Assembly (NCBI GenBank): GCA_001899085.1
Contig: MKVB01000003.1
Span: 93,178-157,177, forward strand
DNA from: Devosia sp. 66-14
GTDB taxonomy: Bacteria; Pseudomonadota; Alphaproteobacteria; Rhizobiales; Devosiaceae
Reading direction: 5' to 3'
DNA: 64,000 nt
In this document: positions 17,588 to 33,826 of the stretch, one piece after another
Layout: the number at the start of each line of letters is the position of its first letter
Numbering within the stretch: position 1 is the stretch's first letter
Translations under genes and position numbers: made by a program
Notes under the pieces: generated by a model
Database searches by the model: none
Seen by the model: only the letters and a program-made list of their open reading frames with translations
Told to the model about the DNA's origin: nothing

Positions 17588-17624
17588 GTTTCTTATTTGA
17601 AACTCGCGGTATCAGATGATAACC
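17588..17624. promoter_or_regulatory. inverted repeats in the IclR/transporter divergent promoter
   Basis: Two symmetrical elements sit side by side: GTTTC (17588-17592) with GAAAC (17599-17603), and GGTATCA (17608-17614) with TGATAACC (17617-17624). They lie between the start of the LplB gene and the IclR gene in the A/T-richest part of the gap. IclR proteins bind such short palindromes, so this is the best candidate for their shared operator. Confidence 0.45.
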
Positions 17625-17654
17625 GTGACGACCAAATGGACAGGATGTCAAGCC

Positions 17655-18425
17655 ATGCGTGGGTCTGAGATCGAGGCGCAGAACCGCAATCCGGCGATCG
17701 AGCGGATGATGGCCATTCTCCAGCAACTGGAGCGGGCGCCGAACGGGTTGGGCCTGAAGCGCCTGGTCGAGCAGTCGGGGGTGACGCGCTCGACGGTCTA
17801 CCGCATCCTCAACTCGCTGACAGCGCACGGCCTGGTGCGCCAGCTGGAGAATTCCGATTACGTGCTGGGCAGCCGCCTGCTGTCGCTGGCCGACGGTGTC
17901 GGGATGCCGTCCGGAGGGCGCGTCGCCAAGGTGGCGCAGCCGCATCTCGACTTCGTGGCGCGCTCCCTGGGGGAGACGGCGAAGATCTCGATCTACGATC
18001 GCGGTCATGTGCTGGTGGTCGCGGTTGCCGGTGGCACCAAGCAGCACGCGCTGCATGCCCGGGTCGGCGAGCAGTTGCCGATCCATGCCGGCGGCAGCAG
18101 CAAGGCGCTGTTCGCCTTCCTGCCTGAGGCCGAACGCCAGCGCATCTATTCCCGGCCGCTGACCCAGTACAACGAACGCACCATCTTCGAGCCGGAAGCG
18201 CTCGAGGAGGAACTGTCGCGCGTGCGGCAACAGGGCTGGGCGTGCGACCCGGGGGAGTTCACGGCTGCGGTCAATTCCTACGCCGCACCGATCCGCGATC
18301 GTTCCGGCGACGTGGTCGCCGCCGTCAGCATCCCGTTCCTCGCCGGCCGCGATGCAGAATACGAGCAACTGGTGCGCGCCACCGCGCTGGCCACCGCCGA
18401 CCGCATCAGCATGGGGCTTGGCTAA
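17655..18425 (+). CDS. IclR family transcriptional regulator
   Basis: The 256-residue protein has an N-terminal winged helix-turn-helix (AIERMMAILQQLERAPNGL, then RLVEQSGVTRSTVYRILNSL) and a C-terminal effector domain (VAQPHLDFVARSLGETAKIS, GGSSKALFAFLPEAER, YAAPIRDRSGDVVAAVSIPF) typical of IclR. The start at 17655 is preferred because AGGA lies 9 bp upstream and an earlier ATG at 17616 would fall inside the operator repeats. It is divergent from the sugar transporter operon and most likely controls it. Confidence 0.9.
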   Translation: MRGSEIEAQNRNPAIERMMAILQQLERAPNGLGLKRLVEQSGVTRSTVYRILNSLTAHGLVRQLENSDYVLGSRLLSLADGVGMPSGGRVAKVAQPHLDFVARSLGETAKISIYDRGHVLVVAVAGGTKQHALHARVGEQLPIHAGGSSKALFAFLPEAERQRIYSRPLTQYNERTIFEPEALEEELSRVRQQGWACDPGEFTAAVNSYAAPIRDRSGDVVAAVSIPFLAGRDAEYEQLVRATALATADRISMGLG

Positions 18426-18535
18426 GGCGTTTCGTGGCGCGAACAAGACTGTCGTTTATAGTTTCGTTCCCTAATTGTTCTTGCCTGATCCGCGAACCTC
18501 CTGCTAGCGTGCCGCGCGGATATTGGGGGCGGGGA

Positions 18536-20056
18536 ATGGTCACTCAGGTCGCCACGGTGGCGTTTCAGGGGATCGAGGCGGTGCCGGTCGAAGTGCAGGT
18601 GCAGATTGCGCCCGGCATGCCGAAGTTCTTTCTCGTCGGCCTGCCCGACAAGGCGGTGAAGGAATCGAGCGAGCGGGTGCGCGCCGCGCTCTACGCCTCT
18701 GGCCTCAGCCTGCCGCCCAAGCGGATCACGGTGAACCTGGCGCCGGCGGACCTGCCAAAGGAAGGCAGCCATTACGACCTGCCGATCGCGCTTGGGCTGA
18801 TGGCGGCGATCGGCGCCATTCCGTCCGATGCGCTCGAAGGTTACCTGGCGCTGGGCGAACTCGGGCTCGACGGCCGGCTGGCGCCAACCGCCGGCGTGCT
18901 GCCGGCGGCCATTGCGGCGTTGTCGCGCGACATGGGCATTATCTGCGCCGAGGCGTCCGGGCCGGAGGCGGCATGGGCCGGCGACGACCTCGAGATCGTC
19001 GCGCCGCAGACGCTCCTGGCATTGGTCAACCACCTGGGTGGCTTCCAGATCTGCAGCCGGCCGGTGGCGCGGCGGCGGGCTGAGCCTGCGGGACTGCCCG
19101 ATCTCAGCGACGTGCGGGGACAGCACGTGGCGCGACGCGCGCTGGAGGTTGCGGCGGCTGGCGGCCATAACCTCCTGATGGTCGGGCCGCCGGGCGCCGG
19201 CAAATCGATGCTGGCGGCGCGGCTGCCGTCGATCCTGCCGCCGCTCAACCCGCGCGAGCTGCTCGACGTGTCGATGATCCAGTCGATTGCCGGCGAACTG
19301 GCCGGCGGGGCGCTCAGCGACCGCCGGCCGTTCCGCGCGCCGCATCATTCGGCCTCGATGGCGGCGCTGGTCGGCGGTGGCCTGAAGGTGAGGCCGGGCG
19401 AAGCCAGCCTCGCCCATAATGGCGTACTGTTTCTCGACGAACTGCCGGAGTTCTCGCCCTCGGTGCTCGACAGCCTGCGCCAGCCGCTCGAAGCAGGGGA
19501 GACGGTGATCGCCCGCGCCAATGCGCATGTCAGCTTTCCCGCCCGCTTCCAGCTGGTCGCGGCGATGAACCCCTGCAAATGCGGCCTCGCCGGAACGCCC
19601 GGGCATGTCTGCAAGCGCGGCGACCGCTGCGTGCTCGACTACCAGGGTCGGGTGTCCGGTCCGTTCCTCGATCGCATCGATCTGAGGATCGACGTGCCTG
19701 CCGTTTCGGCTGCCGACATGATCGGGCCAGCCACGGCCGAACCTTCGGCGGCGGTCGCAATACGGGTCGAGGCGGCCCGTGAGCGACAACGCCAGCGCTA
19801 TGCGGATGCCGGCCATCCCGACATCTTCACCAATGCCGCCGCCGGGCCATCGCTGATCGAAAAGCTGGTCGACCCCGACAAGGAGAGCCAGACCCTGCTG
19901 CTGCAGGCCTCCGAGCGCTTCAACCTCTCGGCCCGCGCCTATCACCGCGTGCTGAAGGTGGCGCGCACCCTCGCGGACCTCGCCGGCGCCGACAAGGTGG
20001 CCCGCCCGCACCTCGCCGAAGCGTTGAGCTACCGGCTGAATCTGGCGCTGGCCTAG
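18536..20056 (+). CDS. yifB: YifB family Mg chelatase-like AAA ATPase (ComM homologue)
   Basis: The 506-residue protein starts MVTQVATVAFQGIEAVPVEV, with the RecA/Lon-like substrate domain (MPKFFLVGLPDKAVKESSERV) up to about residue 170. The AAA+ core follows: Walker A GPPGAGKSMLAARLP, the Walker B region GVLFLDELPEFSP, and the YifB C-terminal cysteine motif MNPCKCG...C.R. ComM-type helicases promote branch migration when foreign DNA is integrated during transformation. The ATG after GGGGCGGGGA fits the family N-terminus exactly. It stands alone, just upstream of the TOMM cluster, with no functional link seen. Confidence 0.95.
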   Translation: MVTQVATVAFQGIEAVPVEVQVQIAPGMPKFFLVGLPDKAVKESSERVRAALYASGLSLPPKRITVNLAPADLPKEGSHYDLPIALGLMAAIGAIPSDALEGYLALGELGLDGRLAPTAGVLPAAIAALSRDMGIICAEASGPEAAWAGDDLEIVAPQTLLALVNHLGGFQICSRPVARRRAEPAGLPDLSDVRGQHVARRALEVAAAGGHNLLMVGPPGAGKSMLAARLPSILPPLNPRELLDVSMIQSIAGELAGGALSDRRPFRAPHHSASMAALVGGGLKVRPGEASLAHNGVLFLDELPEFSPSVLDSLRQPLEAGETVIARANAHVSFPARFQLVAAMNPCKCGLAGTPGHVCKRGDRCVLDYQGRVSGPFLDRIDLRIDVPAVSAADMIGPATAEPSAAVAIRVEAARERQRQRYADAGHPDIFTNAAAGPSLIEKLVDPDKESQTLLLQASERFNLSARAYHRVLKVARTLADLAGADKVARPHLAEALSYRLNLALA

Positions 20057-20462
20057 CCCGGGCCCGAGGCCCGGCGATCATTGCAGTCACCGCCGTCGCC
20101 AATCCCGCTCGGGCGGCGCGGCCCCACGTCGCCGTGGGATCCCCGGTGCACGCCCCACAGGGCCTGAGGTCGGCCAATCGCTGCGTTCAGGATGCAACGT
20201 CGCCTGGGTAACGGGCTCAGTCTGTTCGTTCAGCTCCGGTGGCTTGCAGCCAACGATCATGCACCGCGACCGCTACGATTCTGCTGCCTCTAACATGCAG
20301 TAAATACAATGATTATCACTATCAAATGCAACAAGCTGTCGTGCAGATCGATAAAAATGATCCGTTGCAATTGTCGCTCAGTAGAAGTGCGTGTAGTGTA
20401 CCTACGCTTTATCTCACTACCAGACCTCGCGCGGAATACTCCTGCTACTAGAGGACAGTGAC
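20057..20462. other. 406-bp gap before the TOMM precursor gene
   Basis: The first 230 bp are GC-rich and hold no convincing gene; a GC-rich hairpin follows the yifB stop. From about 20290 the sequence turns A/T-rich and contains a Fur-like box and the likely promoter of the cluster. TTGTCG (20371-20376) with TAGTGT 17 bp downstream (20394-20399) is a possible but weak -35/-10 pair. GAGGACAG just before 20463 supplies the ribosome site. Confidence 0.45.
20305..20323. promoter_or_regulatory. Fur-like box upstream of the TOMM cluster
   Basis: The 19 bases TACAATGATTATCACTATC match the classical Fur consensus (GATAATGATAATCATTATC) at 15 of 19 positions by my count. The box lies about 140 bp before the precursor start, in the only A/T-rich part of the gap. 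In Rhizobiales, Fur homologues often act as manganese regulators, so metal control is plausible without naming the metal. Confidence 0.4.
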
Positions 20463-22247
20463 ATGGCGTTGCTTGATACCCCCGAATTCAAGGTCGCATG
20501 GGCGCGGGTTGTTGCTCGCGCCGCAGTTGAAGCCGCTTACAAGGCCCGTGTCACCAAGGACCCGGCAGCGGTGTTCGCCGAGCAAGGCGTCAGCGACCTC
20601 GACGAGAAGGCGCTGGCCGCTTTCGTGAAGGACCATCTGCAATCGGCGGTGGCGGCGGTTGAGCTGCAATCGACCCAGCAGCAGGCGTCCGAGCCGAGCG
20701 ACGCCGGGCGGTCGATGTGCTTCTGCTCCGACCCCTGCACCGGTAACTGCGCCACGCAGGCCTGCCAGTTGCCCTGCTGGGCCCCGGCCGCCGCCCAGCC
20801 GTCCGCCTTCAGCACCATCGGCGGCTCCGGCGCCCAGGGCGCCTCCCCCGGAGGGATCGCCACCATGGTCTGCTCGACGGCACGCTGCGCCACCATGCCC
20901 TGCGGCCCGATCGCCACCCAGGCCAGCGGATCATCCGGGCAACGCACACAGAGCGGCGGGGCCGGCGCCGAACTCAATCAAGGCTTCAACTGTCGCGGCT
21001 CGATTGGAACGGCGGCGTCGTTCGGCTCGCTCTGCGGCACGGCCGGCAGTGCCGGAACGGTAGGGTGCTTCGGCAGCGCGGTCGCCGAAGACGCAATGAT
21101 GGCCGGAGGCGGCATGTCTGCCTGCGGCGGATCCATGGCCACAATGGGAGGTGGAGCGATGTCGACTCAACTTTCAGGCGCGACTGGCGGCACGGCCAGC
21201 GCGGGAACTGCAATGGGACGTTCATTCAACTGCTGGGGCACCGCGGCAACGCTGGGCAGCGCCGGCAGTTTCTGCGGCACAGCGGGCACCGCCGGCACGG
21301 GTGGCACGTTCGGCAGCGGCGGCGGGCTGACCAACCAGATGGCGGCCAATAGCGCCGGCCTCGGTGGAGGTGGCGGCGGGTTTGGCGCCACCAGCGCCGG
21401 CCGCAACTTCAACTGCCTCGGCAGCATCGGCACCGCCGCCTCGTTCGGATCGGTCTGCGGTACGGCCGGCAGCGCCGGCACGGTCGGCTGTTTCGGCAGC
21501 GCGGTCACCAATGAAATGGCGATGGGCGGCGCGTCCATGGGCACCATGGGTGGCGGCAGTTCCACCCAGCTCTCGGGCGCAACCGGCGGCAGCGCCAGTG
21601 CGGGAACCGCGATGGGCCGTTCGTTCAACTGCTGGGGCACTGCGGCGACGCTGGGCAGCGCCGGCAGCTTCTGCGGCACGGCGGGCACGGCCGGTACCGG
21701 CGGCACCTTCGGCAGCGGTGGTGGGCTGACCAACCAGATGGCAGCAGCCAACACTGGCGGTCTCGGTGGTGGCGGCTTCAGCGCAAGCAGCGCCGGTCGC
21801 AGCTTCAACTGCCTCGGCAGCATCGGCACCGCCGCCTCGTTCGGCTCGGTCTGCGGCACCGCCGGCAGTGCCGGCACGGTCGGCTGCTTCGGCAGTGCCC
21901 TCACCAACGAGATGGCCGCCATGGGCGGCGCCTCCGCCGGCACGGTGGGTGGCGGGGCCAGCTCCACCCAGCTTTCGGGCGCGAGCGCGGCGACTGCCAT
22001 GGGCCGTTCGTTCAACTGCTGGGGCACTGCGGCGACGCTGGGCAGCGCCGGCAGCTTCTGCGGTACCGCCGGTACCGCCGGCACGGGGGGCACATTCGGC
22101 TGCGGCGGCGGTGACGTGGCGCTGCAGCAGAACACCAATAGCGGCGCTACGCTCGGCTCGTTTGCGACCTTCTGCGGCTGCGTCGGCGGCGGTGGGGGCG
22201 GCGATACGACTTCAGCCAGCTGGGGCACCATGGCGAGCGGCAGCTGA
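20463..22247 (+). CDS. giant TOMM precursor-like protein with tandem Cys/Gly repeats
   Basis: The 594-residue protein is read as the substrate of the cyclodehydratase encoded next to it. Residues 1-85 hold no cysteine and form a helical leader; the part AAYKARVTKDPAAVFAEQGV resembles nitrile-hydratase-type (NHLP) leaders. Residue 86 starts a cysteine cluster (CFCSDPCTGNCATQACQLPC), and about 28 cysteines follow in a Gly/Ser/Thr/Ala-rich region almost free of charge. From residue 175 two related modules alternate three times: A (FNC-x-GSIGTAASFGS, CGTAGSAGTVGCFGS) at 175, 316 and 448, and B (FNCWGTAATLGSAGSFCG, TAGTAGTGGTFG) at 255, 388 and 517. Cys, Ser and Thr next to Gly/Ala are ideal azole sites. 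It could instead be a structural repeat protein, but the neighbours argue for modification. No signal peptide. Confidence 0.8.
   Translation: MALLDTPEFKVAWARVVARAAVEAAYKARVTKDPAAVFAEQGVSDLDEKALAAFVKDHLQSAVAAVELQSTQQQASEPSDAGRSMCFCSDPCTGNCATQACQLPCWAPAAAQPSAFSTIGGSGAQGASPGGIATMVCSTARCATMPCGPIATQASGSSGQRTQSGGAGAELNQGFNCRGSIGTAASFGSLCGTAGSAGTVGCFGSAVAEDAMMAGGGMSACGGSMATMGGGAMSTQLSGATGGTASAGTAMGRSFNCWGTAATLGSAGSFCGTAGTAGTGGTFGSGGGLTNQMAANSAGLGGGGGGFGATSAGRNFNCLGSIGTAASFGSVCGTAGSAGTVGCFGSAVTNEMAMGGASMGTMGGGSSTQLSGATGGSASAGTAMGRSFNCWGTAATLGSAGSFCGTAGTAGTGGTFGSGGGLTNQMAAANTGGLGGGGFSASSAGRSFNCLGSIGTAASFGSVCGTAGSAGTVGCFGSALTNEMAAMGGASAGTVGGGASSTQLSGASAATAMGRSFNCWGTAATLGSAGSFCGTAGTAGTGGTFGCGGGDVALQQNTNSGATLGSFATFCGCVGGGGGGDTTSASWGTMASGS
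20985..22130 (+). repeat. three tandem A-B module repeats inside the precursor gene
   Basis: The codons for FNC mark each module: A at 20985, 21408 and 21804; B at 21225, 21624 and 22011. The A-to-A steps are 423 and 396 bp and the B-to-B steps 399 and 387 bp, all multiples of three, so the frame is kept. B2 and B3 are identical at DNA level for about 50 bp from the FNC codons, and A2 and A3 differ by very few bases, which points to recent duplication; A1 is more diverged. The linkers between modules vary in length. Confidence 0.9.
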
Positions 22248-22342
22248 CGCTGAAGCCAACGACGCCGGCGCTGCTCGGCTAGGGGCGCGCTGCAGAGCCG
22301 GCGACGTGGCGACAAGCTGGTCACTTACCCAGGGGGTCCCAG

Positions 22343-24586
22343 GTGCACCGTCCGAAGTTCAAGGACAAATACCACATCGAGCCGGTGGACGACGCGGTCT
22401 TCCTGCTCGCCGAGCGGGACAGTTTCGTCCTCGAAGGGCCATCCATGGCCCGGGTCGTGCCGTTGATCGATGGCGTCCGCTCATCGGAGGAAATCGTCGC
22501 GGCAGCCTGGCCGACGCTTCAGCCCAACGACGTCTCGCAGGCGCTGAACCTGCTGAACCAGGCCGGCCATCTGGTGGAATCCGACCCGGGTATGCCGGCG
22601 GTGTTCGCCGCCTTCTGGTCGGAACTGAACGTCGACACCCGCATCGCAGCCTCGATCCTGTCGAGCCACAGCATCGCCGTGAGCACCATCGGCCCCGTCG
22701 ATGCGACGCCGCTGATCCACGCGCTGCGCGCCTTCGGCATTCGCGTCGAAGCGGCGGGAAGCGTGCAGATCGCCGTGGTCGACGACTACCTGCGGCCGGA
22801 GCTGGCGGAACTGAACCGCCAATGCCTCGCCCGGGGCGTGCCGCTGCTGCTGGTCAAGCCGGTCGGCCTGCAATTGTGGATCGGGCCGCTGGTGCTGCCC
22901 GGCCAGACGGCCTGCTGGCGTTGCCTCGAAAGCCGGCTGCGCGGCAACCGCGAAGTCGAAAGCTTCGTCGAGCGCAAGAGCGGCAAGTCTGGACCCTTCC
23001 CGATCGTCAGGGCCCGCGTCGGCATCGCCGAGCACCAGGCCTACTCTATGCTGGTCACCCAGTTGGTCCGCTGGCTGGTCACCGGGCGCAACGCGGAACT
23101 CGAGTCACGCGTGCTGGTCGCCGACCTGATCAACTTCTCGTTCAGCTTCCACCAGATCGTCAAACGCCCGCAATGCCCCGATTGCGGCGATCCGGCGCTT
23201 GGCTCGACGGCAGGCCAGCGCGTCGATATCCGCGACTTCCTCGCCCCGGTCGATACCCAGGGCGGACTGCGCTCGGAACCGCCCGAACAGACCTTTGCCC
23301 GCTTCGAGCACCATATTTCCTCGCTCAGCGGGGTGGTGAAAGCCGTCACCCCGTCGATCTGGCACGGCGCCGGTCCGATCCGGACCTATGTCGCGGGGCA
23401 CAATTTCGCGCTGAAGAGCGACCAGCTGTATTTCCTCAAGGATGGCCTGCGCACCCAGAGCTCGGGCAAAGGCCGCACCGATGCGCAGGCCCGCACCAGC
23501 GCCCTGTGCGAAGCACTCGAGCGCTATAGCGGGGTCTATCGCGGCGACGAGCCGCGGATCACCGGCTCGCTTGCCGGCCTGGGCGAGCTGGCGCTCGATC
23601 CGCGCGACGCCATGCTCTACAGCGCCAGCCAGTTCGAGAACCGCGAGGCCTGGCTGGCGCGGAACAGCCGCTTCCAGGTCGTGCCGCTGCCGTTCCGCGA
23701 GGATGACGTGCTGGAATGGACCCCGCTATGGTCGCTGACCAGGGGCCGCCAGCGCTATCTGCCGACCAGCTATCTCTACTACAACTACCCCTCGCGGCCG
23801 GAGCAGTTCTACTGCTGGGCCGATTCCAACGGCTGCGCGGCAGGAACCACGCTGGAAGACGCGATGCTGCAGGGGTTGCTGGAGCTGGTCGAGCGCGATG
23901 CCGTCGCCATCTGGTGGTACAACAGGCTGCGCTACCGGGCGATCGATCTCGACGCCTATGACGACGGCTACATTTCCGAGATGCGGGCGTTCTACTACTC
24001 GCAGTCGCGCGATTTCTGGGTGCTCAACATTACCTCGGACCTGGGCATTCCGGCCTTCGTCGCGATCAGCCGCCGCTTCCGCGGCCCGACCGAGGATATC
24101 ATGATGGGTTTTGGCGCCCATCTCGACACCCGGATCGCCATCAATCGCGCCATGACCGAGCTAAACCAGTTCATTCCGGCGCTGCTCGGCACCAATCCGG
24201 ATGGCACCACCCATTATGCGCTGGGCGATGTCGATGCGCTGAACTGGTGGCAGAATGCCACCATCGACAACCAGCCCTACCTGCTGCCGGCGGAAGGCAG
24301 CGCCCCATTCCGCCCCGACGAGGCGGTGCCGATGCCCGAAGGCGGGGTCGGCACCCTGCTGCGGGGGCTGGTCGACAAGCTCGAGGGGCGCGGCCACGAG
24401 GTGCTGATGCTCGATCAGACCCGCCCCGACGTCGGACTGCCGGTGGTCAAGATGGTGGTACCGGGGTTGCGTCACTTCTGGGCCCGCTTCGCGCCGGGTC
24501 GGCTCTATGACGTACCTGTCCAGATGGGCCTTCTGCAGCAACCCCTGGCGGAAGCGGAGCTCAATCCGATTCCGATGTTCCTGTGA
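22343..24586 (+). CDS. TOMM cyclodehydratase: leader-binding/E1-like domain fused to YcaO
   Basis: The 747-residue protein should bind the leader and convert Cys/Ser/Thr to azolines using ATP. Residues 1-75 look like a RiPP recognition element. An E1/ThiF-like domain follows, with the structural zinc site formed by CWRC (191-194) and CPDC (278-281). The YcaO domain starts near residue 350: SSGKGRTDAQARTSALCEAL (about 373) and GCAAGTTLEDAMLQGLLELV with ERDAVAIWW (about 497) are its nucleotide/Mg-binding motifs. The end NPIPMFL is a weak form of the proline-rich YcaO tail. GTG start after GGGGG. Such C/D fusions occur in cyanobactin and many other TOMM clusters. It overlaps the next gene by 4 bp. 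Confidence 0.93.
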   Translation: MHRPKFKDKYHIEPVDDAVFLLAERDSFVLEGPSMARVVPLIDGVRSSEEIVAAAWPTLQPNDVSQALNLLNQAGHLVESDPGMPAVFAAFWSELNVDTRIAASILSSHSIAVSTIGPVDATPLIHALRAFGIRVEAAGSVQIAVVDDYLRPELAELNRQCLARGVPLLLVKPVGLQLWIGPLVLPGQTACWRCLESRLRGNREVESFVERKSGKSGPFPIVRARVGIAEHQAYSMLVTQLVRWLVTGRNAELESRVLVADLINFSFSFHQIVKRPQCPDCGDPALGSTAGQRVDIRDFLAPVDTQGGLRSEPPEQTFARFEHHISSLSGVVKAVTPSIWHGAGPIRTYVAGHNFALKSDQLYFLKDGLRTQSSGKGRTDAQARTSALCEALERYSGVYRGDEPRITGSLAGLGELALDPRDAMLYSASQFENREAWLARNSRFQVVPLPFREDDVLEWTPLWSLTRGRQRYLPTSYLYYNYPSRPEQFYCWADSNGCAAGTTLEDAMLQGLLELVERDAVAIWWYNRLRYRAIDLDAYDDGYISEMRAFYYSQSRDFWVLNITSDLGIPAFVAISRRFRGPTEDIMMGFGAHLDTRIAINRAMTELNQFIPALLGTNPDGTTHYALGDVDALNWWQNATIDNQPYLLPAEGSAPFRPDEAVPMPEGGVGTLLRGLVDKLEGRGHEVLMLDQTRPDVGLPVVKMVVPGLRHFWARFAPGRLYDVPVQMGLLQQPLAEAELNPIPMFL

Positions 24587-25962
24587 ACGGCGGCGCGCCA
24601 AGCCGAGGGATTGCGCTTCGCCGGCTCGAGACCCGGGCCAGCGCGCGGCTCAGCATCGAGCAGGCGATCGGCCCGGCCGTTCAGCCGCTCTGGCAGCGGC
24701 TGGGCAACGGTCCGCTGCTGCTCGCCGAGCTCGAGGCGGAGTTCGAGGATACGCTGCCGCAGCTCTATGCCTTTGTGCAGCGCCTGTGGGCGAATTGCGG
24801 CCTGGCGCTCGGCTGGCCCGCCGGCGATCCCGAGCTCGAGATCGAACCGGCAGTCGCCGGCGAGGTGCTCAAGCTCGGCGTCGGCATGCCGACCGATCGC
24901 TGGAAGGTTTCGCGCTTCGCCCAGCTGCATGTCGACGACAGTGGCGGCACCCTGATCGAGACTCCGCGCATACCGGTCATCACCCGCATCCTGAAGCCGC
25001 GGGTCGCGGCGGTGCTCGTTGCGCTGGCCGTGCCACGAACGGCCGCCGAAATGCTGGCGGAGCTGCGCTGGCGCAGCACCTCGAAAGAGCTGCTCGAAAT
25101 GCTTGCCCTGCTGTGGTCGGCGGGCGTGATCACCCGCTGCGACGCCGAGGGGCTGAGCGAGGAAGATGCGCAACCCGAGCTGCTGCAGTGGGAGCCGCAT
25201 GATCTTGCTTTTCACATGCGCAGCCGCCAGGGCCGGCACAGCTATCCAATGGGCGCCAGCTTCCGTTTCCGCGGACGGCTCGACCCGCATCCGGCGGTGA
25301 AGCCCAACCCCTGGCGCGAGCGGGCGATCGCGCTGCCGAAATTCGATCTCGCCGCCGTCGCCGCCCGCGACCCGCCCTTCACCACGGTGCTGGAGTTTCG
25401 GCGCTCGATCAGGGCCATGGATTTCTCCCGCCCGATCAGCCTGGCGCAGATCGCCGAGTTCCTGTTCCGCACGGCGCGGGTCCGTCACCGCTTCAACACC
25501 GAGATCGGCGAGTTCACCTCGCGCCCCTACCCCAATGGCGGCGCCAGCTACGAGTTCGAGCTCTATCTCACCATCAATGCCTGCGCCGGGCTCGAGCGCG
25601 GTTTCTACTATTACGATCCGGAGGGCCATACGCTGAGCCTGGTGCGGCGCCCCAACGAGGATACCGAGGCCCTGCTCGATGACGCCTGGGTGTCGTCGGC
25701 ACGGCAATGCCGGCCCCAGGTGCTGATCACCATTGCCAGCCGCTTCCACCGCGTGTCGTGGAAGTATTCCGGCATGGCCTATGCGGCGCAACTGAAGAAC
25801 GCGGGCGTGCTCTACCAGACCTTCTACCTGGTCGCGACGGCGATGAACCTGGCCGGCTGCGGCCTCGGCCTCGGCGATGCGGCCCGCTTCGCGCGGCTGA
25901 CCGAGATCAGCAACTTCGAGGAGGGGTCGGTCGGCGAGTTCATGTTGGGCACGCCTGCCTGA
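24583..25962 (+). CDS. SagB-type FMN-dependent azoline dehydrogenase
   Basis: The 459-residue protein should oxidise azolines to aromatic azoles. Its second half (from about residue 265) is a nitroreductase-fold SagB/ThcOx domain: FTTVLEFRRSIRAMDFSRPI with the R-R-S phosphate-binding motif for FMN, RPYPNGGASYEFELYLTI, and the C-terminal GCGLGLGDAARFARLT. The first 240 residues are a helical/winged domain common in long SagB proteins, possibly for leader or partner contact. The GTG start lies in the GTGA overlap with the YcaO stop, so the two are coupled in translation. Confidence 0.92.
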   Translation: MNGGAPSRGIALRRLETRASARLSIEQAIGPAVQPLWQRLGNGPLLLAELEAEFEDTLPQLYAFVQRLWANCGLALGWPAGDPELEIEPAVAGEVLKLGVGMPTDRWKVSRFAQLHVDDSGGTLIETPRIPVITRILKPRVAAVLVALAVPRTAAEMLAELRWRSTSKELLEMLALLWSAGVITRCDAEGLSEEDAQPELLQWEPHDLAFHMRSRQGRHSYPMGASFRFRGRLDPHPAVKPNPWRERAIALPKFDLAAVAARDPPFTTVLEFRRSIRAMDFSRPISLAQIAEFLFRTARVRHRFNTEIGEFTSRPYPNGGASYEFELYLTINACAGLERGFYYYDPEGHTLSLVRRPNEDTEALLDDAWVSSARQCRPQVLITIASRFHRVSWKYSGMAYAAQLKNAGVLYQTFYLVATAMNLAGCGLGLGDAARFARLTEISNFEEGSVGEFMLGTPA

Positions 25963-25977
25963 AGGCGAGGAAGAACG

Positions 25978-27579
25978 ATGGCGATAGTCAACACGCAGTC
26001 CGAGGCGAACAGCTTTGTGCAGGTCTCGCCGCTGCTGGCCTCGGTTCGCGACATTTCGAGCGGCATGACGGCAGACCAGCGCCTGCTGGTGGTCCGGCAG
26101 CTGGCGACGCTGCTCGAGGACTACTACGTCCACCTGCCGCTCAAGCGCAGCTCGCTCGGCATCGACCCGGTGCAGGAAGCCAGCCTGCTGGTCGACGAAG
26201 TGCGCTTCATCCAGTCGGATGGCGATTTCTTCCGCCGTATTTTCGGCATCCTGAAGCGGTTGCGCGACCGGCACACGGCGCTGCGACTGCCCAGCCCCTG
26301 GCGCGACATGGTGGCCTACCTGCCGTTTGCTGCCGAGAGTTATTACGAAGCCGGCCGTCGCCGGCTCGTGGTCAGCAAGCTGATGGCCGATGTCGGTGAG
26401 CCGAGTTTCAGCGTCGGGGTCGAAATCACCCATTGGAACGGCATGTCGGTTGGCCGCTTCATCGAGGCCCTGAGCTGGGAAAGCGAAGGCGCCAATCCGT
26501 TCGCGCGCATTGCCACGACGATGCGATCGCTGACCGTCCGGCCGCTGGGCTACATGCTTCCGCCCACCGAAGACTGGGTAACCCTCACCTACCTGACGCC
26601 CGACGGCATCTACCACAGCGCCACCATCCCCTGGCGGGTCTACATGCCGCCGGGCAACAGCTCCGCCGCCAGCGCCAATGTCACTTCATCGGGCGGCATG
26701 GCGATGTTCCAGGGCGTCGACCGCAACACGCTGATCATCAACAACACCTGGTACGACCTGTTCTCGCGGCGCGGCGGCACCGGGCAGACCTCGACCATCA
26801 CCGACAGCGTCCGGTTCCAGACGGTCAAGAACGATGCCGGCGAGTTCGGCTATATCCGCATCTTCTCGTTCGATGTTCCCGACCCCGCCGCATTCGTCGC
26901 CGATTTCGCGAGGGTGCTGGGTCAGTTGCCGCAGCGGGGCCTGATCATCGACATCCGCTCCAACCCCGGCGGCACCATCCCGGCCGGCGAAGGCCTGTTC
27001 GCTCTGTTCACCAAGGGCAAGACCACGCCCCAGCCGGTGAGCTTCCGCAACACTCCGGCGGTGCGTCCACTCGGCGATCTGCCGATGTTTCTCAAATGGA
27101 AGCGCTCGCTCGATATGCAGCTGGAGACCGGCGAAATCTTCACCCAAGGCTTTCCGCTTACCGACCCTGGCGATCCGGCGCTGAACGGCATCTATCCCGG
27201 CAAGGTGGTGCTGATCATCGATGCCCTGTGCTACAGCACCACCGATTTCTTCGTCGCCGGCATGCAGGACAATGGCCTTGCCTATGTCATCGGCGTCGAT
27301 CCGGTGACCGGCGCAGGCGGCGCCAATGTCTGGAGCCAGCGTCTGCTGCGCCAGTTCGTCGCCGAGTCCGGTGGCACCGAGGTGACCGAACTGCCGTCCA
27401 ATATCGACATCGAGATCGCCATGCGCCGCTCGATGCGCGTCGGCCCCAATGACGGGCTGCCGCTGGAAGGCCTGGGGGTCTTCGCCGATCGCATCTACCA
27501 GCCGACGCGCCGCGACGTGCTCGGCGAGAATGAGGATTTGATTGACCTCGCCTGTCGGGTGCTTTCAGGTCAGGCATGA
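25978..27579 (+). CDS. S41 family peptidase in the TOMM cluster
   Basis: The 533-residue protein belongs to the C-terminal processing/tail-specific peptidases. Visible motifs are a PDZ-like stretch (VGVEITHWNGMSVGRFIEAL), LIIDIRSNPGGTIPAGEG (the family NPGG turn) and VVLIIDALCYSTTDFFVAGM with the likely nucleophilic serine in CYSTTD. There is no signal peptide, unlike periplasmic CtpA, so it should act in the cytoplasm together with the modifying enzymes. Inferred role: leader removal or cutting between modules of the precursor. It starts 15 bp after the SagB stop behind GAGGAAG, and its own stop overlaps the next start. Confidence 0.88.
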   Translation: MAIVNTQSEANSFVQVSPLLASVRDISSGMTADQRLLVVRQLATLLEDYYVHLPLKRSSLGIDPVQEASLLVDEVRFIQSDGDFFRRIFGILKRLRDRHTALRLPSPWRDMVAYLPFAAESYYEAGRRRLVVSKLMADVGEPSFSVGVEITHWNGMSVGRFIEALSWESEGANPFARIATTMRSLTVRPLGYMLPPTEDWVTLTYLTPDGIYHSATIPWRVYMPPGNSSAASANVTSSGGMAMFQGVDRNTLIINNTWYDLFSRRGGTGQTSTITDSVRFQTVKNDAGEFGYIRIFSFDVPDPAAFVADFARVLGQLPQRGLIIDIRSNPGGTIPAGEGLFALFTKGKTTPQPVSFRNTPAVRPLGDLPMFLKWKRSLDMQLETGEIFTQGFPLTDPGDPALNGIYPGKVVLIIDALCYSTTDFFVAGMQDNGLAYVIGVDPVTGAGGANVWSQRLLRQFVAESGGTEVTELPSNIDIEIAMRRSMRVGPNDGLPLEGLGVFADRIYQPTRRDVLGENEDLIDLACRVLSGQA

Positions 27580-28211
27580 TCGAACTTCACATCCTCGATG
27601 CGGCGCGACGGCTACGGCCGTATCGGCGCAGCCTGAAGCGCGGCTTCAGGGTGGCGCGGGCTCGCGTTCCGCGTTTGCTGCCTGTCGGAGATGTGGACGT
27701 GGTCATGCAGGAGCTTCCCGCTCTCACCATCGCCGAGACCGGGGTTGGCGGCTACTCGCCTGCCGCCGACATTCTCTACATCTACTGCAACCCCGCACAT
27801 CCCCAGTTTGGCAGCAGCCTCGACCGCGAGCTGGTGCCGATGATTGCCCATGAAATGCTGCACTGCGTGCGGTGGCGAGGCCCAGGTTATGGGGCGACGC
27901 TGGGTGAGGCGCTGGTTTCCGAGGGTCTTGCGATGCACGTCGAAGGCCTGTTTCGGGGCCATGCGCCGTTCTATGGCACGACGGTCGATGACGCCGGACT
28001 TGCCAAGATGCTCGAGCGGGCGCGGCCGCTGTTCGACAGCACCGACTATGGCCACGCTGCGTGGTTCATCGGATCGGAAGAGCGCGACATCCCCCGCTAT
28101 GGCGGCTACGCGCTCGGCTATCGCATCGTGGCGAACGGTCTGCGCCGACTTGGTCTGCATGTGGCTGCCGCCTGGGACCGACCGGCCAGGGACTTCCTGT
28201 CGGGCGTCTAG
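27576..28211 (+). CDS. putative zinc metallopeptidase, DUF2268-like
   Basis: The 211-residue protein carries the zincin motif H-E-x-x-H in MIAHEMLHCVRWRGPGYG (about residues 90-94) and a downstream EALVSEGLAMHVEG, whose glutamate is the probable third zinc ligand. This pattern fits the YjaZ/DUF2268 group of predicted zinc proteases. No signal peptide. The ATG overlaps the S41 stop (ATGA), so the gene belongs to the TOMM operon. A second protease in the same operon suggests that the precursor is cut more than once, or that this enzyme degrades leader fragments. Confidence 0.8.
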   Translation: MIELHILDAARRLRPYRRSLKRGFRVARARVPRLLPVGDVDVVMQELPALTIAETGVGGYSPAADILYIYCNPAHPQFGSSLDRELVPMIAHEMLHCVRWRGPGYGATLGEALVSEGLAMHVEGLFRGHAPFYGTTVDDAGLAKMLERARPLFDSTDYGHAAWFIGSEERDIPRYGGYALGYRIVANGLRRLGLHVAAAWDRPARDFLSGV

Positions 28212-28233
28212 GCAACCCCCCGGCCCACCCGGG

Positions 28234-28282
28234 TTGCCATACCTATTGCCGCCAGATATACGTTACCTAGCAACGCTAGGTA
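28234..28282 (+). promoter_or_regulatory. PadR promoter and palindromic operator
   Basis: TTGCCA (28234-28239), a 17-bp spacer and TATACG (28257-28262) form a promoter. Immediately downstream is a perfect 8-bp inverted repeat, TACCTAGC (28264-28271) and GCTAGGTA (28275-28282), with an AAC centre. It covers the expected transcription start, 7 bp before the PadR ATG, so it is probably the PadR autoregulatory operator. Confidence 0.65.
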
Positions 28283-28289
28283 TTGATCC

Positions 28290-28631
28290 ATGGTGAGTTC
28301 GAAGAACCCGGCTTTTCTCAACGGCGTGCCCGAGCTGCTGATCCTGCAGTGCCTCAAGGGCCGGCGGATGTATGGCTACGAGCTGGTGCAGGCGATCCGC
28401 GACGCAACCGGCGAGCATGTCGTGCTGGCCGAAGGCGTGGTCTATCCGGTGCTGCATATGCTGGAACGCGAGGGGGCGCTGTCGGCCGAACGCCGGACGG
28501 TGAACGGGCGCAGCCGCATCTATTACGCGCTGACCGACCGCGGCACGGCGCGTCTCGCCGATCTCGCCGATACCTGGCGGCGCCTGACAGCCGCCATTGG
28601 CGGCGTATTGGGGGAGCCCGGCCATGCGTGA
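28290..28631 (+). CDS. PadR family transcriptional regulator
   Basis: The 113-residue protein has the PadR winged helix: LNGVPELLILQCLKGRRMYG, YELVQAIRDATG, and VVYPVLHMLEREGALSAER, followed by RSRIYYALTDRGTARLADL. It is the first gene of a three-gene unit with a HAAS-domain membrane protein (8-bp overlap) and an alpha/beta hydrolase. PadR with HAAS-domain partners is a frequent pairing, in which the regulator senses a compound or envelope state. It begins 78 bp after the TOMM cluster; a functional link is possible but not shown. Confidence 0.92.
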   Translation: MVSSKNPAFLNGVPELLILQCLKGRRMYGYELVQAIRDATGEHVVLAEGVVYPVLHMLEREGALSAERRTVNGRSRIYYALTDRGTARLADLADTWRRLTAAIGGVLGEPGHA

Positions 28632-29244
28632 CCCGATCGCCGGCCTCAGCGAACGGCTGCTGCGTGGCGGTATTTCGCCAGCACGCGTCGCCCGGTATGC
28701 CGCCGAGCTCGACGAGCATCTCGAAGACCTGACGGCGGAACTGGCCGCCGCCGGGCTGCCGCCCGAACAGGCCCGCGCCGCGGCGCGCCAGCGCCTGGGC
28801 GATCCGGACCTGCTGGCCGCTTCGATGCTGGCGCAGCCGGGGCTGCGTTCGCTGCCCAGCCGGCTACCGGCTTTCGCCTGGCTGGCGCTGCCGCTGGTCG
28901 CCGAACTCGCTGTCGTCGCCGGGCTGGCCGCCCTGGTGGTTGCCGCAGCCCGGCACGGCTTCGGGACCCCCGCGACCGCCATCGTCGATCCGCTGCTGCT
29001 GGTGGCGCCGCTGGGTATTGCCTGGAGCATCGGGAGGAGTGCGCTGCGGCGTCGGGCGGGAGCCGGCTGGCCGTTGGCCGGCATGCTCGCCACGCTCATT
29101 GCCGCCGCAGCGCTCGAACTGAGCATTGGCGCCGATGCCGTTGCCGTCAGCCTCCGAAGTCCGACGCCCGATGTCCTGGCCGTTTATGCGCTTCTCACCA
29201 TCGCGCCGTTCCTGCTGCTACACCGCCACCTCAGAGCCCACTGA
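28624..29244 (+). CDS. HAAS-domain membrane protein
   Basis: The 206-residue product has an N-terminal helical domain (ISPARVARYAAELDEHLEDL, then PPEQARAAARQRLGDPDLLA) matching the HAAS signalling domain found next to PadR regulators, followed by four hydrophobic segments (FAWLALPLVAELAVVAGLAA, PLLLVAPLGIAWSIG, LAGMLATLIAAAALEL, LAVYALLTIAPFLLL). It probably relays a membrane signal or acts as an anti-regulator for PadR. It overlaps padR by 8 bp, and its stop overlaps the next start by one base (TGATG). Confidence 0.8.
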   Translation: MRDPIAGLSERLLRGGISPARVARYAAELDEHLEDLTAELAAAGLPPEQARAAARQRLGDPDLLAASMLAQPGLRSLPSRLPAFAWLALPLVAELAVVAGLAALVVAAARHGFGTPATAIVDPLLLVAPLGIAWSIGRSALRRRAGAGWPLAGMLATLIAAAALELSIGADAVAVSLRSPTPDVLAVYALLTIAPFLLLHRHLRAH

Positions 29245-30143
29245 TGCGCCTCCTCATCGCTGTCACCCTTGCGGCGCTTGCCGCCACCCCGGCGCTCGCC
29301 CGGACCGAGCATCGCCAGTTGCCCCGCACCGACGGCAGCACCATCGCCTACTCGGTCGATACTCCGTCGGGCCCGATCGATGGCGTGCTGGTCCTCGCCC
29401 AGGGCTCGGGCTGCCAGCCGACCGCTGGCAATGCCAACCTCAACGCCGTGCGGCAGGCGTTTCCGCACCACCTGGCGGTGATGGTCGAGAAGTACGGCAT
29501 TGCGTCCGATGCGGCGATCGCCGACGGCTTCACCGACTGCCCGCCCGCCTTCCACGCCGGCCACACGGTGAAGCAGCGGGTTGCCGATTATGTCGCGGTG
29601 CTGGCCGACCTGAGATCGGCGGGGGATATCCCGCTGGTGCTGTTCGGCGGCTCGGAGGGTGGACTTGCGGTCGCCATGCTGGCCGAGGAGACCCGGCCGG
29701 CCGCGACGATCCTGCTGTCCTCGGCCACCGGTATTCCATTCGCCGAGATGGTGCTGAGCACCGTGCCGGCCGAAGGCCACGCGACGGTCGAGGCAGGCTT
29801 TGCGGCAGCCCGCGCCGACCCGCAGGGCACCGCGCTGTTCGCCGGCTCGTCACATCGCTTCTGGGCCGATATCCTCGATCGGATCCCGGCCGACTACATG
29901 CTGAACAGCGGCTCGCCCTTCCTCATCATCCAGGGCGGCCTCGACACGTCCTCGCCGGTGGCGGCGGCCCGCGCCACGGCCGACCGTTTCGCGGCGGCCG
30001 GCAAATGCAACCTGACCTACTGGGAGTTTCCGGCCCTCGATCACGGCATGCGCAGCCCGGATGGAACCTCGCACCTCGACGACATCGCGACAGCAATCGC
30101 CGGGTGGGTTGCCGGCATCGGTACCGCCGCCGCCAAGTGCTGA
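29244..30143 (+). CDS. exported alpha/beta hydrolase
   Basis: The 299-residue protein has a signal peptide (MRLLIAVTLAALAATPALA) and an alpha/beta hydrolase core: the nucleophile elbow LFGGSEGGLAVA (G-x-S-x-G), an acid likely in LIIQGGLDTSSPV, and the catalytic histidine in FPALDHGMRSP. Two cysteine-containing stretches (GSGCQPT, FTDCPPAF) could be disulfide-bonded in the periplasm. It is translationally coupled to the HAAS protein. Substrate unknown: an esterase or peptidase, possibly acting on a compound sensed by PadR. Confidence 0.82.
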   Translation: MRLLIAVTLAALAATPALARTEHRQLPRTDGSTIAYSVDTPSGPIDGVLVLAQGSGCQPTAGNANLNAVRQAFPHHLAVMVEKYGIASDAAIADGFTDCPPAFHAGHTVKQRVADYVAVLADLRSAGDIPLVLFGGSEGGLAVAMLAEETRPAATILLSSATGIPFAEMVLSTVPAEGHATVEAGFAAARADPQGTALFAGSSHRFWADILDRIPADYMLNSGSPFLIIQGGLDTSSPVAAARATADRFAAAGKCNLTYWEFPALDHGMRSPDGTSHLDDIATAIAGWVAGIGTAAAKC

Positions 30144-30178
30144 GCTCTGGTCCGCGGAACGGCCAGCTATGCGGGGCG

Positions 30179-30712
30179 CTACTCCCTGCGGAATTCGTGG
30201 CTGAGCACGCCCATGATCAGGTCGTCGTGCCAGGTGCCGTCGAGGAACGCCGTCTCGCGCTCACGGCCTTCGCGCACGAAGCCGCACTTCTCGTAGCAGC
30301 GGATGGCCCTGACATTGTCGGCGAGGACGCGCGCCGAGACGCGGTGCAGACCAAGCTCGTCGAAGCCATAGGCGAGCACCCGGCGGACCGCCTCGGTGCC
30401 AAGACCGCGGCCCTGATCTTGCTGCCGCAGCAGGCCGATGGCGAGCGAGGCACGCTTCTCGGCCAGGTCGACCCGATCGAGCCGGATGGTGCCGAGCAGC
30501 GAGCCGCCCTCGATGATCCAGGCATGGGGATGCGCCAGCAGCCCGCGGGCCCAGCGCTCGGCATCCTCGCGGCCAAAGGCCGCCCCATCCGGCTGGACGC
30601 CATAGAGCCGAAGGTTCTCGTCGGGTTCGGCGCCGATGGCGAGGCGCCGCTCCACGTCGGCGGCAGTCGCCGGCCGCATGGTCAGGTTCCGAGACTGAAG
30701 GACAGGCGGCAT
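30179..30712 (-). CDS. GNAT family N-acetyltransferase, RimJ-like
   Basis: The 177-residue enzyme has the GNAT fold: NLTMRPATAADVERRLAIG at the start, the acetyl-CoA pyrophosphate loop LLRQQDQGRGLGTEAVRRVL (Q-G-x-G-x-G/A type), and the family end LADNVRAIRCYEKCGFVREG. The RimJ/RimL-like order suggests acetylation of a protein N-terminus or a small amine. It is a single gene converging on the PadR unit. A start 11 codons further in is possible. Confidence 0.88.
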   Translation of the reverse strand: MPPVLQSRNLTMRPATAADVERRLAIGAEPDENLRLYGVQPDGAAFGREDAERWARGLLAHPHAWIIEGGSLLGTIRLDRVDLAEKRASLAIGLLRQQDQGRGLGTEAVRRVLAYGFDELGLHRVSARVLADNVRAIRCYEKCGFVREGRERETAFLDGTWHDDLIMGVLSHEFRRE

Positions 30713-30755
30713 TGGGTTTCCCCCGGGGGGAGTTGGCCACCGCCTTCTAGCCGTT

Positions 30756-31871
30756 CTACGAGATGCGCCGATAGCCGCCGCGCACGCCGCCGGGGCTCAG
30801 CACCAACTGCCACAAGTGGATGTTGCGGGCGCGGAACATGGCGGCGAACACCTGCAGGTAGAACCGCCACATGCGCCAGAAGCGATCGCCATACTTGTCG
30901 CGCAGCGTGGGCCAGGCGGCGTCGAAATTGGCCCACCAGGCCATCAGCGTCCTGTCGTAGTCGGCGCCGAAATTGTGCCAGTCCTCCATCACGAACAGCC
31001 GCTCGCTGGCGGTGGCGATCTGCCTGATCGAGGGCAGCATGCCGTTGGGGAAGATGTATTTCTCGGTCCACGGGTCGCCGTGGGTGGAGGAGAAATTGTT
31101 GCCGATGGTGTGGAGCAGGAACAACCCGTCGGGCGTGAGCAGGGAGCGGACCTTCCTCAGATAGGCCTCGTAGTTCTTGTAGCCGACATGCTCGAACATG
31201 CCGATCGAGATCACCCGGTCGAACTGGCCGTCGAGCGCCATGTAGTCCATCAGCCGCGTCTCGATCGGCAGGTTGCCTTTGGTCGCCTCGGCGAAGGCCG
31301 CCTGTTCCCTCGAGATGGTGATGCCCACCCCCTCGACGCCATAGCGCTCGGCGGCGAATTTCAGGAACCCGCCCCAGCCCGAGCCGATATCGAGGATCTT
31401 CATCCCCGGCTGGAGCCCGACTTTCCTGCAGATCAGGTCGAGCTTGGCTTCCTGCGCGGCGTCGAGCGTCGTCGCCTCGGCCCAGTAGCCGCACGAGTAG
31501 ATCATCCGCTTGTCGAGCATGGCGGCATAGAGATCATTGCCGATGTCGTAGTGCCGCTCGCCCACCTCGGTGACGCGGGTGCGTTGCAGGTTGAGCAGCT
31601 TGCCGCGCACGAAACTCAGCGCCAGCCCGATATCTGGCTTCAGATGCGCGTAGATGTCGTATTCCAGCAGCCTGTAGATGAACTGGTCGAGCGCCTCGGT
31701 GTCGAACCAGCCGTCCATATAGGCTTCGCCGAAACCGAGCGTCCCGTGGCTGAGGGCACGGCCCCACAGGCGGTCGTCGTGCACGGTGACATCGAAGGGC
31801 CGGCTGCCGCCCAGTTCGATGCCTGCGTCTTTGAGGATGGATGTAAAATAGGACTTTGGCCCGGCGCTCAT
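30756..31871 (-). CDS. cyclopropane-fatty-acyl-phospholipid synthase family methyltransferase
   Basis: The 371-residue SAM-dependent enzyme transfers a methylene group to a membrane lipid double bond. Signatures are VTEVGERHYDIGNDLYAAML, MIYSCGYWAEA, the SAM site MKILDIGSGWGGFLKFAAER and FDRVISIGMFEHVGYKNYEA. The N-terminal domain (FDVTVHDDRLWGRALSHGTL, GEAYMDGWFD) is typical of this family. The modest length excludes the long E. coli-type tail. It is a single gene next to an unrelated phosphotriesterase. Confidence 0.92.
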   Translation of the reverse strand: MSAGPKSYFTSILKDAGIELGGSRPFDVTVHDDRLWGRALSHGTLGFGEAYMDGWFDTEALDQFIYRLLEYDIYAHLKPDIGLALSFVRGKLLNLQRTRVTEVGERHYDIGNDLYAAMLDKRMIYSCGYWAEATTLDAAQEAKLDLICRKVGLQPGMKILDIGSGWGGFLKFAAERYGVEGVGITISREQAAFAEATKGNLPIETRLMDYMALDGQFDRVISIGMFEHVGYKNYEAYLRKVRSLLTPDGLFLLHTIGNNFSSTHGDPWTEKYIFPNGMLPSIRQIATASERLFVMEDWHNFGADYDRTLMAWWANFDAAWPTLRDKYGDRFWRMWRFYLQVFAAMFRARNIHLWQLVLSPGGVRGGYRRIS

Positions 31872-31973
31872 CGCGGAACCTCGATAGGTATGATCCTAAC
31901 GAAATTCTAGCGCTGCCCGGCGCGCCGGACAAGACCCGGCAACGCTATGCTGGCATTCACAAAATCCCGCTTC

Positions 31974-32888: not shown

Positions 32889-32940
32889 GGATGTCTCCTC
32901 GGGGCGGAGCATTCCCGAGTTCGGCGCCGAAGGCAAACCG

Positions 32941-33162
32941 TTACGGCGCCTCGGCATCGCCGGGTACGAACTTCAGCAGGTCGCCCGGCTCGCATTTGAG
33001 ATAGATGCAGATCGCTTCCAGCGTATCGAAGCGCATGCCCTTCACCTTGCCCTGGCGCAGCAGCGACAGGTTGGCTTCGGTGATGCCGACGAATTCCGCC
33101 AGATCCTTGGATTTGACGCCGCGTTCGGCCAGCAGCACGGCGAGGTTGACCTTGATCGGCAT
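32941..33162 (-). CDS. small XRE-type regulator (YozG-like)
   Basis: The 73-residue protein is a bare helix-turn-helix of the Cro/C1 type: MPIKVNLAVLLAERGVKSKD, then LAEFVGITEANLSLLRQGKV and a C-terminal RFDTLEAICIYLKCEPGDLL. This is the usual partner of DUF2975 membrane proteins, and here its ATG overlaps the DUF2975 stop by one base (TGATG). It probably represses the pair through the inverted repeat at 33749-33766. The long open frame that extends upstream is only read-through of the DUF2975 region in another frame. Confidence 0.9.
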   Translation of the reverse strand: MPIKVNLAVLLAERGVKSKDLAEFVGITEANLSLLRQGKVKGMRFDTLEAICIYLKCEPGDLLKFVPGDAEAP

Positions 33163-33716: not shown

Positions 33717-33748
33717 CTCGGGCTCCTTTGCATCAGTATGTCATTTAT

Positions 33749-33766
33749 ACGATAACAAATTATCGT
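33749..33766. promoter_or_regulatory. operator-like inverted repeat between DUF2975/XRE and the small exported protein
   Basis: ACGATAA (33749-33755) and TTATCGT (33760-33766) form a perfect 7-bp inverted repeat with a CAAA centre, inside a notably A/T-rich 110-bp gap. It lies 33 bp upstream of the DUF2975 start. A binding site for the XRE protein of that operon is the most likely use. Confidence 0.55.
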
Positions 33767-33826
33767 TGCACAATAAGAAATCGCTGTGTAACAAGCTCGC
33801 CGTTCGCTTTTCAACAGGAGCTTTCC

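Follow-up and report, generated by a model that had tools for sequence, protein, structure and literature searches.

What is made from a precursor-like protein of 594 residues that is encoded at the head of a set of azole-forming genes? The question is raised by a locus of Devosia sp. 66-14 (assembly GCA_001899085.1, contig MKVB01000003.1, positions 93,178 to 157,177 of the forward strand), a stretch of 64,000 nucleotides that was analyzed as a whole and is referred to below as the window. A check of the open reading frames (ORFs) of the window showed five co-directional ORFs on the plus strand, spanning 20463-28211, with all frames open. A first-pass annotation had described a unit of precursor, YcaO fusion, SagB, S41, and DUF2268 genes, and its coordinates, order, overlaps, and 15-bp gap were all verified:

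20463-22247, plus strand: precursor gene (594 aa)
22343-24586, plus strand: leader-binding/E1-like/YcaO cyclodehydratase fusion (747 aa, GTG start)
24583-25962, plus strand: SagB-type dehydrogenase (459 aa; 4-bp overlap with the YcaO fusion gene)
25978-27579, plus strand: S41 protease with a predicted CPAF-like fold, candidate core-excising protease (15-bp gap after SagB)
27576-28211, plus strand: DUF2268 zinc metalloprotease (211 aa; 4-bp overlap with the S41 gene)

We propose that these genes form an operon for a thiazole/oxazole-modified microcin (TOMM), or linear azol(in)e-containing peptide, with a multi-core precursor whose cores are probably modified and then excised. The parts are familiar; the multi-core, S41-linked arrangement looks new.

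Azole-forming enzymes and a repeated precursor

The proposal relies in the first place on all three azole-forming functions scoring above their NCBIfam cut-offs: the YcaO fusion matches the SagD-family cyclodehydratase model TIGR03604 (281 bits, cut-off 219) and the leader-binding, E1-like partner model TIGR03882 (133 bits, cut-off 36.9), and the dehydrogenase matches the SagB model TIGR03605 (165 bits, cut-off 78.4). Residues Cys191, Cys194, Cys278, and Cys281 of the YcaO fusion are invariant among five aligned sequences, and Lys394-Tyr395 of SagB is invariant in 8/8. Thus, the earlier description of the genes as an azole-forming TOMM operon with an unusually long precursor holds; a survey of TOMM clusters assumed precursors of <150 aa (PMC4603692), so that genes of the 594-aa type fell outside its criteria.

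The precursor itself showed no significant match in the Pfam and NCBIfam libraries. The gene nevertheless looks truly coding, because its third-position GC resembles that of the neighboring genes (0.59/0.72/0.82 over the three codon positions) and because the differences among its repeat copies lie mostly at synonymous sites. Its leader is followed by a Cys-rich stretch and then by six ~33-residue modules in the order A-B-A-B-A-B:

20463-20717, plus strand: leader, aa 1-85 (boundary by eye; without Cys; terminates in AGRS; weakly NHLP-like)
20718-20984, plus strand: Cys-rich segment with a PCGPIAT motif (two Salipiger precursors carry similar motifs)
20985-21089, plus strand: module A1, aa 175-209
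21225-21329, plus strand: module B1, aa 255-289
21408-21512, plus strand: module A2, aa 316-350
21624-21728, plus strand: module B2, aa 388-422
21804-21905, plus strand: module A3, aa 448-481
22011-22112, plus strand: module B3, aa 517-550

The 509-aa core is rich in Cys, Ser, Thr, and Gly, as TOMM precursor cores are, with 151 Ser/Thr/Cys (30%) and 26% Gly. Sixty-two of these 151 residues directly follow Gly, a number reached in 0/1000 shuffles, and Gly recurs at a lag of three residues 53 times, against 34.4 expected and a maximum of 48 among 1000 shuffles. The modules are composed of Gly-[Ser/Thr/Cys]-Xaa triplets, A and B sharing the form xOh-xOh-xOh-xOh-xOh-C-GOh-GOh-..., where O is Ser/Thr/Cys and h is mostly hydrophobic. 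One leader is followed by six core-like modules that are in part nearly identical.

The leader was compared with the nitrile hydratase-type leader peptide (NHLP) models. It gave E values of 0.017 with TIGR04351 and 0.031 with NHase_alpha, both below the cut-offs, and no match to TIGR03793. In one single comparison it was found to be 37% identical over 46 aa (E 2e-8) to the leader at a Sinorhizobium medicae locus (L107), which in turn matched TIGR03793 with an E value of 1.2e-9, yet under the cut-off; its similarity to the Thalassospira leader was not significant (E 0.31). At the leader end, as set by eye (...DAGRSMC), no Gly-Gly cleavage motif is present.

Comparison of the repeat copies is indicative of constraint on the modules. 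The B copies agree pairwise at 35/35, 34/35, and 34/35 residues, with synonymous divergences (dS) of 0.62, 0.55, and 0.48 and nonsynonymous divergences (dN) of 0 to 0.013; A2 and A3 agree at 39/41 residues with a dS of 0.48, and A1 is more diverged, having 30-31/41 residues in common with the other A copies. In the one full super-repeat pair, the modules differ at 1/66 residues and the spacers at 11/66 plus three gaps (Fisher p 0.004). The proportion of nonsynonymous differences (pN) is 0.109 in spacers vs 0.007 in modules, about fifteen-fold, and that of synonymous differences (pS) 0.57 vs 0.34; since the spacers are also richer in synonymous change, the contrast may partly reflect an older divergence or conversion among modules. 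Judged by these substitution patterns, the module copies are maintained by selection.

Related loci and the S41 protease

Genome contigs were scanned with an alignment of the five YcaO fusions, and the best 80 of at least 80 loci were kept. An S41 gene stands behind SagB in seven of these best 80, giving eight such loci when the window is counted. A complete long precursor of the Gly-[STC] repeat kind lies 5′ of YcaO in six of the eight (window, L042, L043, L044, L045, and L056); L078 has a precursor of this kind that is cut, and L107 keeps the S41 gene beside a differing repetitive precursor, part of whose repeats are masked. Among the remaining 73 of the best 80, a composition screen and reading by eye found no long Gly-[STC] repeat precursor, with several loci ending at contig ends, so that a precursor or S41 gene may be overlooked there. 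Besides the S41 loci and L001, which is the window's own, the screen flagged L032 as well as ORFs from further loci, most of them rich in GC; by eye, these ORFs are shadow frames or unrelated large proteins.

In a YcaO tree from which L001, L036, L112, and rows below 300 bits were left out, seven of the eight S41 loci formed one clade with a Shimodaira-Hasegawa-like approximate likelihood-ratio test (SH-aLRT) value of 99, with L107 outside; by this quick method, all eight together were supported at 70, L078 and L107 having long branches. The S41 loci belong to Rhizobiaceae, Nitrobacteraceae, Roseobacteraceae, Paracoccaceae, Alteromonadaceae, and, through a metagenome-assembled genome named Tenacibaculum, Flavobacteriaceae. 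This occurrence in hosts of several families suggests that the cassette has spread horizontally.

The modules recur in other precursors. Twenty of them, from five precursors of four lineages (six in the window, two in L042, and four each in L043 and the Salipiger loci L044 and L056, so that 14 are outside the window), align without gaps and in register, with Ser/Thr/Cys at each third residue on both sides of a CG[TC]A anchor. These are 20 of the 23 printed profile hits (E up to 0.1), picked by the anchor [VFIL]CG[TC]A, in the absence of which L042_125, L045_334, and L078_72 were left out; the invariance of the central Cys is hence by construction. The module profile, A5, was built from 11 of the 20 modules. 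L107, with no modules and with masked bases, is outside these counts, and L056 contains a masked stretch.

The third gene behind the precursor encodes a protein matching Peptidase_S41 (52.9 bits, cut-off 24). Its predicted structure has a mean predicted local distance difference test (pLDDT) value of 75.7, and CPAF was the best match to the fold by Foldseek; by VIA-align, CPAF and 4ghn were tied. Identity to CPAF (PDB 3dor) is 17-19%, and the gene is outside the CPAF equivalog NF033424, with a score of 60.4 bits vs a cut-off of 250; the gene neighbors of CPAF also differ from those found here, with the predicted fold being what is shared. His99, Ser420, and Glu497, which we take to correspond to the CPAF triad, are invariant in 8/8 S41 proteins. 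In the alignment with CPAF, the regions around His and Ser coincide; one solved structure bears the title of an S499A mutant.

The product of the last gene matches DUF2268 (80 bits, cut-off 23.6). The seven S41 loci other than the window showed no DUF2268 homologue in the stretches examined, that of L042 ending 314 bp past the S41 gene.

Within the genus of the window, the sole full-length relative of the YcaO fusion found was that of genome G003 (38% identity; L036), where SagB is present, no S41 match was seen in the stretch, and no repeat precursor was flagged, with ~1.7 kb upstream to the contig end. This YcaO is preceded in G003 by a protein of 449 aa that weakly matches TPR (L004, 111-1460) rather than by a repeat precursor.

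Two further loci of the scan carry genes of their own kind. On a Methylovirgula sp. HY1 plasmid (L032, 7254-7727), a 157-aa ORF missing from the plasmid gene table, with a C-terminus rich in Gly, Cys, and His (Gly-Cys-Gly-His), lies just 5′ of a YcaO-SagB pair and is preceded by a multicopper oxidase gene; it is possibly a metal-related TOMM precursor. In L107 (15657-20220), the S41 gene is followed by genes for a weakly SLATT-like protein and for a 1179-aa protein whose match to mycosin/subtilisin-like proteases is below the cut-off.

Excised cores or an intact chain

The decisive question is whether the modules leave the chain as separate peptides. The window precursor has six copies of [AM]GR[SN], one where the leader ends (81-84) and one immediately ahead of each of five of the six modules; the motif accounts for six of the nine Arg beyond residue 80, and 0/5000 shuffles gave six occurrences, the copies being duplicates. 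The two Salipiger precursors have [AS]TQ[AS] ahead of 4/4 modules, the first at the leader end, and L043 has Gly-Gly ([MVL]GG) across the start of 4/4 modules. A signal common to the leader end and the module starts is what would be expected for a polyprotein cut into cores.

A short counterpart of such a core was found in genome G367 (L153), at one end of a contig of 3745 bp, in the form of two tandem genes (3253-3432, 59 aa; 3512-3718, 68 aa) that have a short acidic leader and Gly-[STC]-Xaa triplet modules. The module profile matched 2/385 sampled genomes of the class, namely the window's own and G367, in which it matched the second gene only. G367 thus supports the idea of single-core genes, its sole YcaO match being a 441-aa protein that adjoins a sirtuin-like gene (named by eye) and is not evidently a TOMM enzyme. 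The first-pass annotation had set widespread occurrence of precursor homologues without YcaO/SagB as the finding that would overturn it; of the two matched genomes, one is the window's own, and G367 is one possible exception. By tblastn against plasmids and phages (E up to 0.01), the window precursor had no homologues; the Salipiger precursor likewise had none in plasmids, and viral contigs gave no precursor-like sequence with the patterns used.

We envisage the following pathway. The YcaO fusion would bind the leader through its N-terminal portion and cyclize Ser/Thr/Cys, chiefly those following Gly, and SagB would oxidize the rings to give Gly-azole-Xaa tripeptide blocks. Cleavage of the chain, both where the leader ends and from module to module, would then yield two related ~33-residue peptides, A and B, in three copies each and with up to ~ten azoles per peptide. 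S41 would be the likeliest cutter, and the DUF2268 protease may assist at the [AM]GR[SN] sites. The peptides may have an activity, perhaps an antibacterial one. This polyprotein reading is favored by the selected module copies, the shared boundary motif, the modules in four other precursors, the association with S41, and the short single-copy module gene in G367.

Published systems offer partial parallels. The YcaO fusion is 43% identical to that of Thalassospira marina (L031) and 42% to that of Nostoc sp. C057. Like NHLP azole peptides such as nostatin A, for which tripeptide azole blocks are described in a paper that also describes them for phazolicin, spongiicolazolicins, and goadsporin (PMC11583998), the present system would combine a SagB partner with an NHLP-type leader and such blocks, the window leader being a marginal NHLP match only. 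The Gly-[STC]-Xaa triplet fits these blocks, and the expected Gly-azole-Xaa unit would have the nostatin A geometry with Gly in place of the dehydro residue. Unlike nostatin A, with one 30-aa core (PMC11583998), the window precursor has six modules; the Thalassospira precursor has 105 aa and, by our own reading, one core, Nostoc C057 has NHLP exporters, and neither L031 nor L034 showed an S41 gene. On the T. marina plasmid, L031 also carries a SagB dehydrogenase-cytochrome P450 fusion (10279-13038), near which lie LanM, an S53 peptidase, and the 105-aa precursor of NHLP type; the five window genes include none of the LanM type.

The closest published precedent for multiple cores in this branch is NHLP-Burk, whose TOMM precursors are described as having apparent multiple cleavage sites, some being fused, with two products suggested (PMC4603692), against six modules here. 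The section of that paper on NHLP families describes them as lacking PatA/G-like proteases and is silent on S41, the string "s41" occurring nowhere in the paper. Heterocycloanthracin (TIGR03601) likewise has a heterocyclizable residue at about every third position, but its precursor has 88 aa and one Cys-Xaa-Xaa region and, in the strain reported on, is encoded 1.27 Mb away from the enzymes (Haft 2009, PMC2674419); TIGR03601 gave no match at E up to 1. Thiovarsolins, from a TfuA-YcaO pathway, share a precursor with repeats (zero to five of them) that yields several peptides, but they are described as thioamides and tripeptides, from a cluster without a specific protease (PMC6511847). The fungal dikaritins ustiloxin and phomopsin have tandem cores, boundary motifs, and S41 peptidases among the conserved cluster proteins, a retention that lends support to the polyprotein reading; they differ in host, in their unrelated chemistry, and in KR motifs linked to Kex2 (PMC6514808). 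A search of open-access literature by title and start of abstract, a scope that leaves subscription papers outside, returned nothing on the present system.

Several observations weigh against the polyprotein reading. The L107 core has 0/15 Ser/Thr/Cys after Gly and no Gly-[STC] triplets, and the precursor of L045 (Bradyrhizobium sp. Tv2a-2), with seven repeats of the same triplet kind by our own count, has zero Cys. The module genes of G367 stand without an evident TOMM YcaO in an assembly of estimated 92% completeness. Homologues of S41 (33-37% identity) occur without a YcaO/SagB match nearby in 4/4 plasmid records. Beyond the window's own genome, the S41 search matched 1/385 class, 0/398 phylum, and 1/397 order genomes sampled, totals that include that genome; for the two genomes so matched, G067 and G991, the ORFs in the stretches examined comprise neither SagB nor YcaO. 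As to the boundaries, the repeat copies are non-independent, so that the [AM]GR[SN] count is inflated and represents about three independent contexts (leader end, A, and B). The motif varies between species, [AM]GR[SN] being confined to the window; module A1 is preceded by LNQG, and the two modules of L042 have no common boundary motif (QNVA and QVS before them). A single S41 specificity is hence insufficient to explain all cases. The spacers, too, contain cyclizable residues. Finally, the earlier observation that the five genes include no exporter or immunity gene was confirmed, and a Pfam scan of seven flanking genes (17616-31871) revealed no exporter; a peptidase-containing ABC exporter was likewise absent from these five and seven genes, the rest of the genome not having been searched.

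One rival is a long polyazole protein, from which at most the leader would be removed and whose ~500-residue chain would work uncut, as a polymer with a structural, surface, or metal-binding role, with S41 trimming the leader or turning the polymer over. The lack of a linked exporter, the triplets outside the modules, and the species dependence of the boundary motifs all fit such a protein. We consider it unlikely nonetheless, given that spacers evolve far faster than modules (11/66 vs 1/66), that the leader-end motif is repeated at module starts, that G367 has a short single-module gene, and that the modules are about the size of the 30-aa nostatin A core (PMC11583998). The heavily azole-modified structural or intracellular protein put forward in the first-pass annotation is likewise not favored, the gene reading as a leader plus six ordinary-sized cores.

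The region upstream of the precursor gene introduces iron into the argument:

20305-20323, minus strand: Fur-box-like site in an AT-rich stretch (16/19 to the consensus)

The site was scored against a 19-bp Fur consensus. This palindrome is the only site within three mismatches in the 5.72-Mb genome, a control pattern having 0 matches, and 0/3000 dinucleotide shuffles of 20058-20462 attain 16/19. In the 500 bp upstream of six other precursors, no Fur-like site above 13/19 was found, L042 and L045 reaching 13. The site hints at iron control of the operon, and an iron-controlled, uncut azole polymer of ~500 residues, with dozens of rings in triplets and serving as metal-binding or structural material, is conceivable; it appears decidedly improbable, and we know of no protein-sized polyazole of this kind.

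Very improbable, in our assessment, is an unmodified Gly-Xaa-Xaa protein (polyproline-II/collagen-like, or an adhesin) encoded next to a TOMM operon with a different true substrate, located elsewhere. Gly is indeed often each third residue, and L045 weakly matches a collagen-like adhesin model (E 0.014, far below the cut-off), but the precursor-YcaO-SagB-S41 order is kept across hosts of several families, Ser/Thr/Cys is fixed at triplet position two in the 20 aligned modules, and the window leader has a relative among leaders of the NHLP type. A functionless low-complexity repeat, decayed or simply expanding, for which the easy expansion of repeat genes and a leader found in just 1/19 genomes of the genus might be cited, can hardly be credited, with the B copies at a dN of 0 to 0.013 vs a dS of 0.48-0.62 and all five ORFs intact.

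If cores are indeed excised, azole peptides would be made as a polyprotein that is invisible to a survey with a 150-aa precursor limit, and S41 proteases would be candidates for core excision in an azole pathway of bacteria. Modules that are repeated by nature and held by selection, together with their boundary motifs, would also make it possible to study how a single leader guides the modification of cores that lie hundreds of residues from it, and would offer a possible route to several azole peptides per gene.

The insertion and its surroundings

The operon sits in a discrete insertion of ~8.18 kb, both flanks of which adjoin in two congeners:

20058-28233, strand not applicable: inserted stretch, from the yifB/ComM-like gene (stop at 20056) to the PadR gene (blastn and Pfam)

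In blastn of the window against stretches from five congeners, positions 20057 and 28234 are separated by just 7 bp in G015 (L140), and 20052 and 28230 by 27 bp in G013 (L141). Starting at ~20058, the insertion includes 400 bp 5′ of the precursor gene that lie beyond the extent first annotated, and the Fur-box-like site may have arrived with it. In G014 (L142, 2081-17851), both flanks are kept, with other genes and a partial yifB copy between them; by eye, these genes are LacI-, sugar-ABC-, and levanase-like. The G011 (L143) and G003 stretches match on the yifB side only. The genus thus varies in what follows the yifB-like gene. The yifB-like gene is present in 19/19 genomes of the genus, the precursor leader was matched in the window's own genome only, and the hydrolase gene downstream of the operon occurs in 4/19.

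A scan of 20057-28300 gave no sigma-70-like promoter (1.1 expected by chance) and five terminator-like sites vs 4.1 expected. The flanking genes are, by Pfam, an IclR regulator, Mg_chelatase (the yifB/ComM-like gene), a PadR regulator, HAAS (weak), a hydrolase (weak), GNAT, and CMAS. Farther downstream, the stretch 30700-48000 gave megablast matches to 16 plasmid records, including 10 from Azospirillum, with 4-5% of the query covered at 73-79% identity in the ten rows listed.

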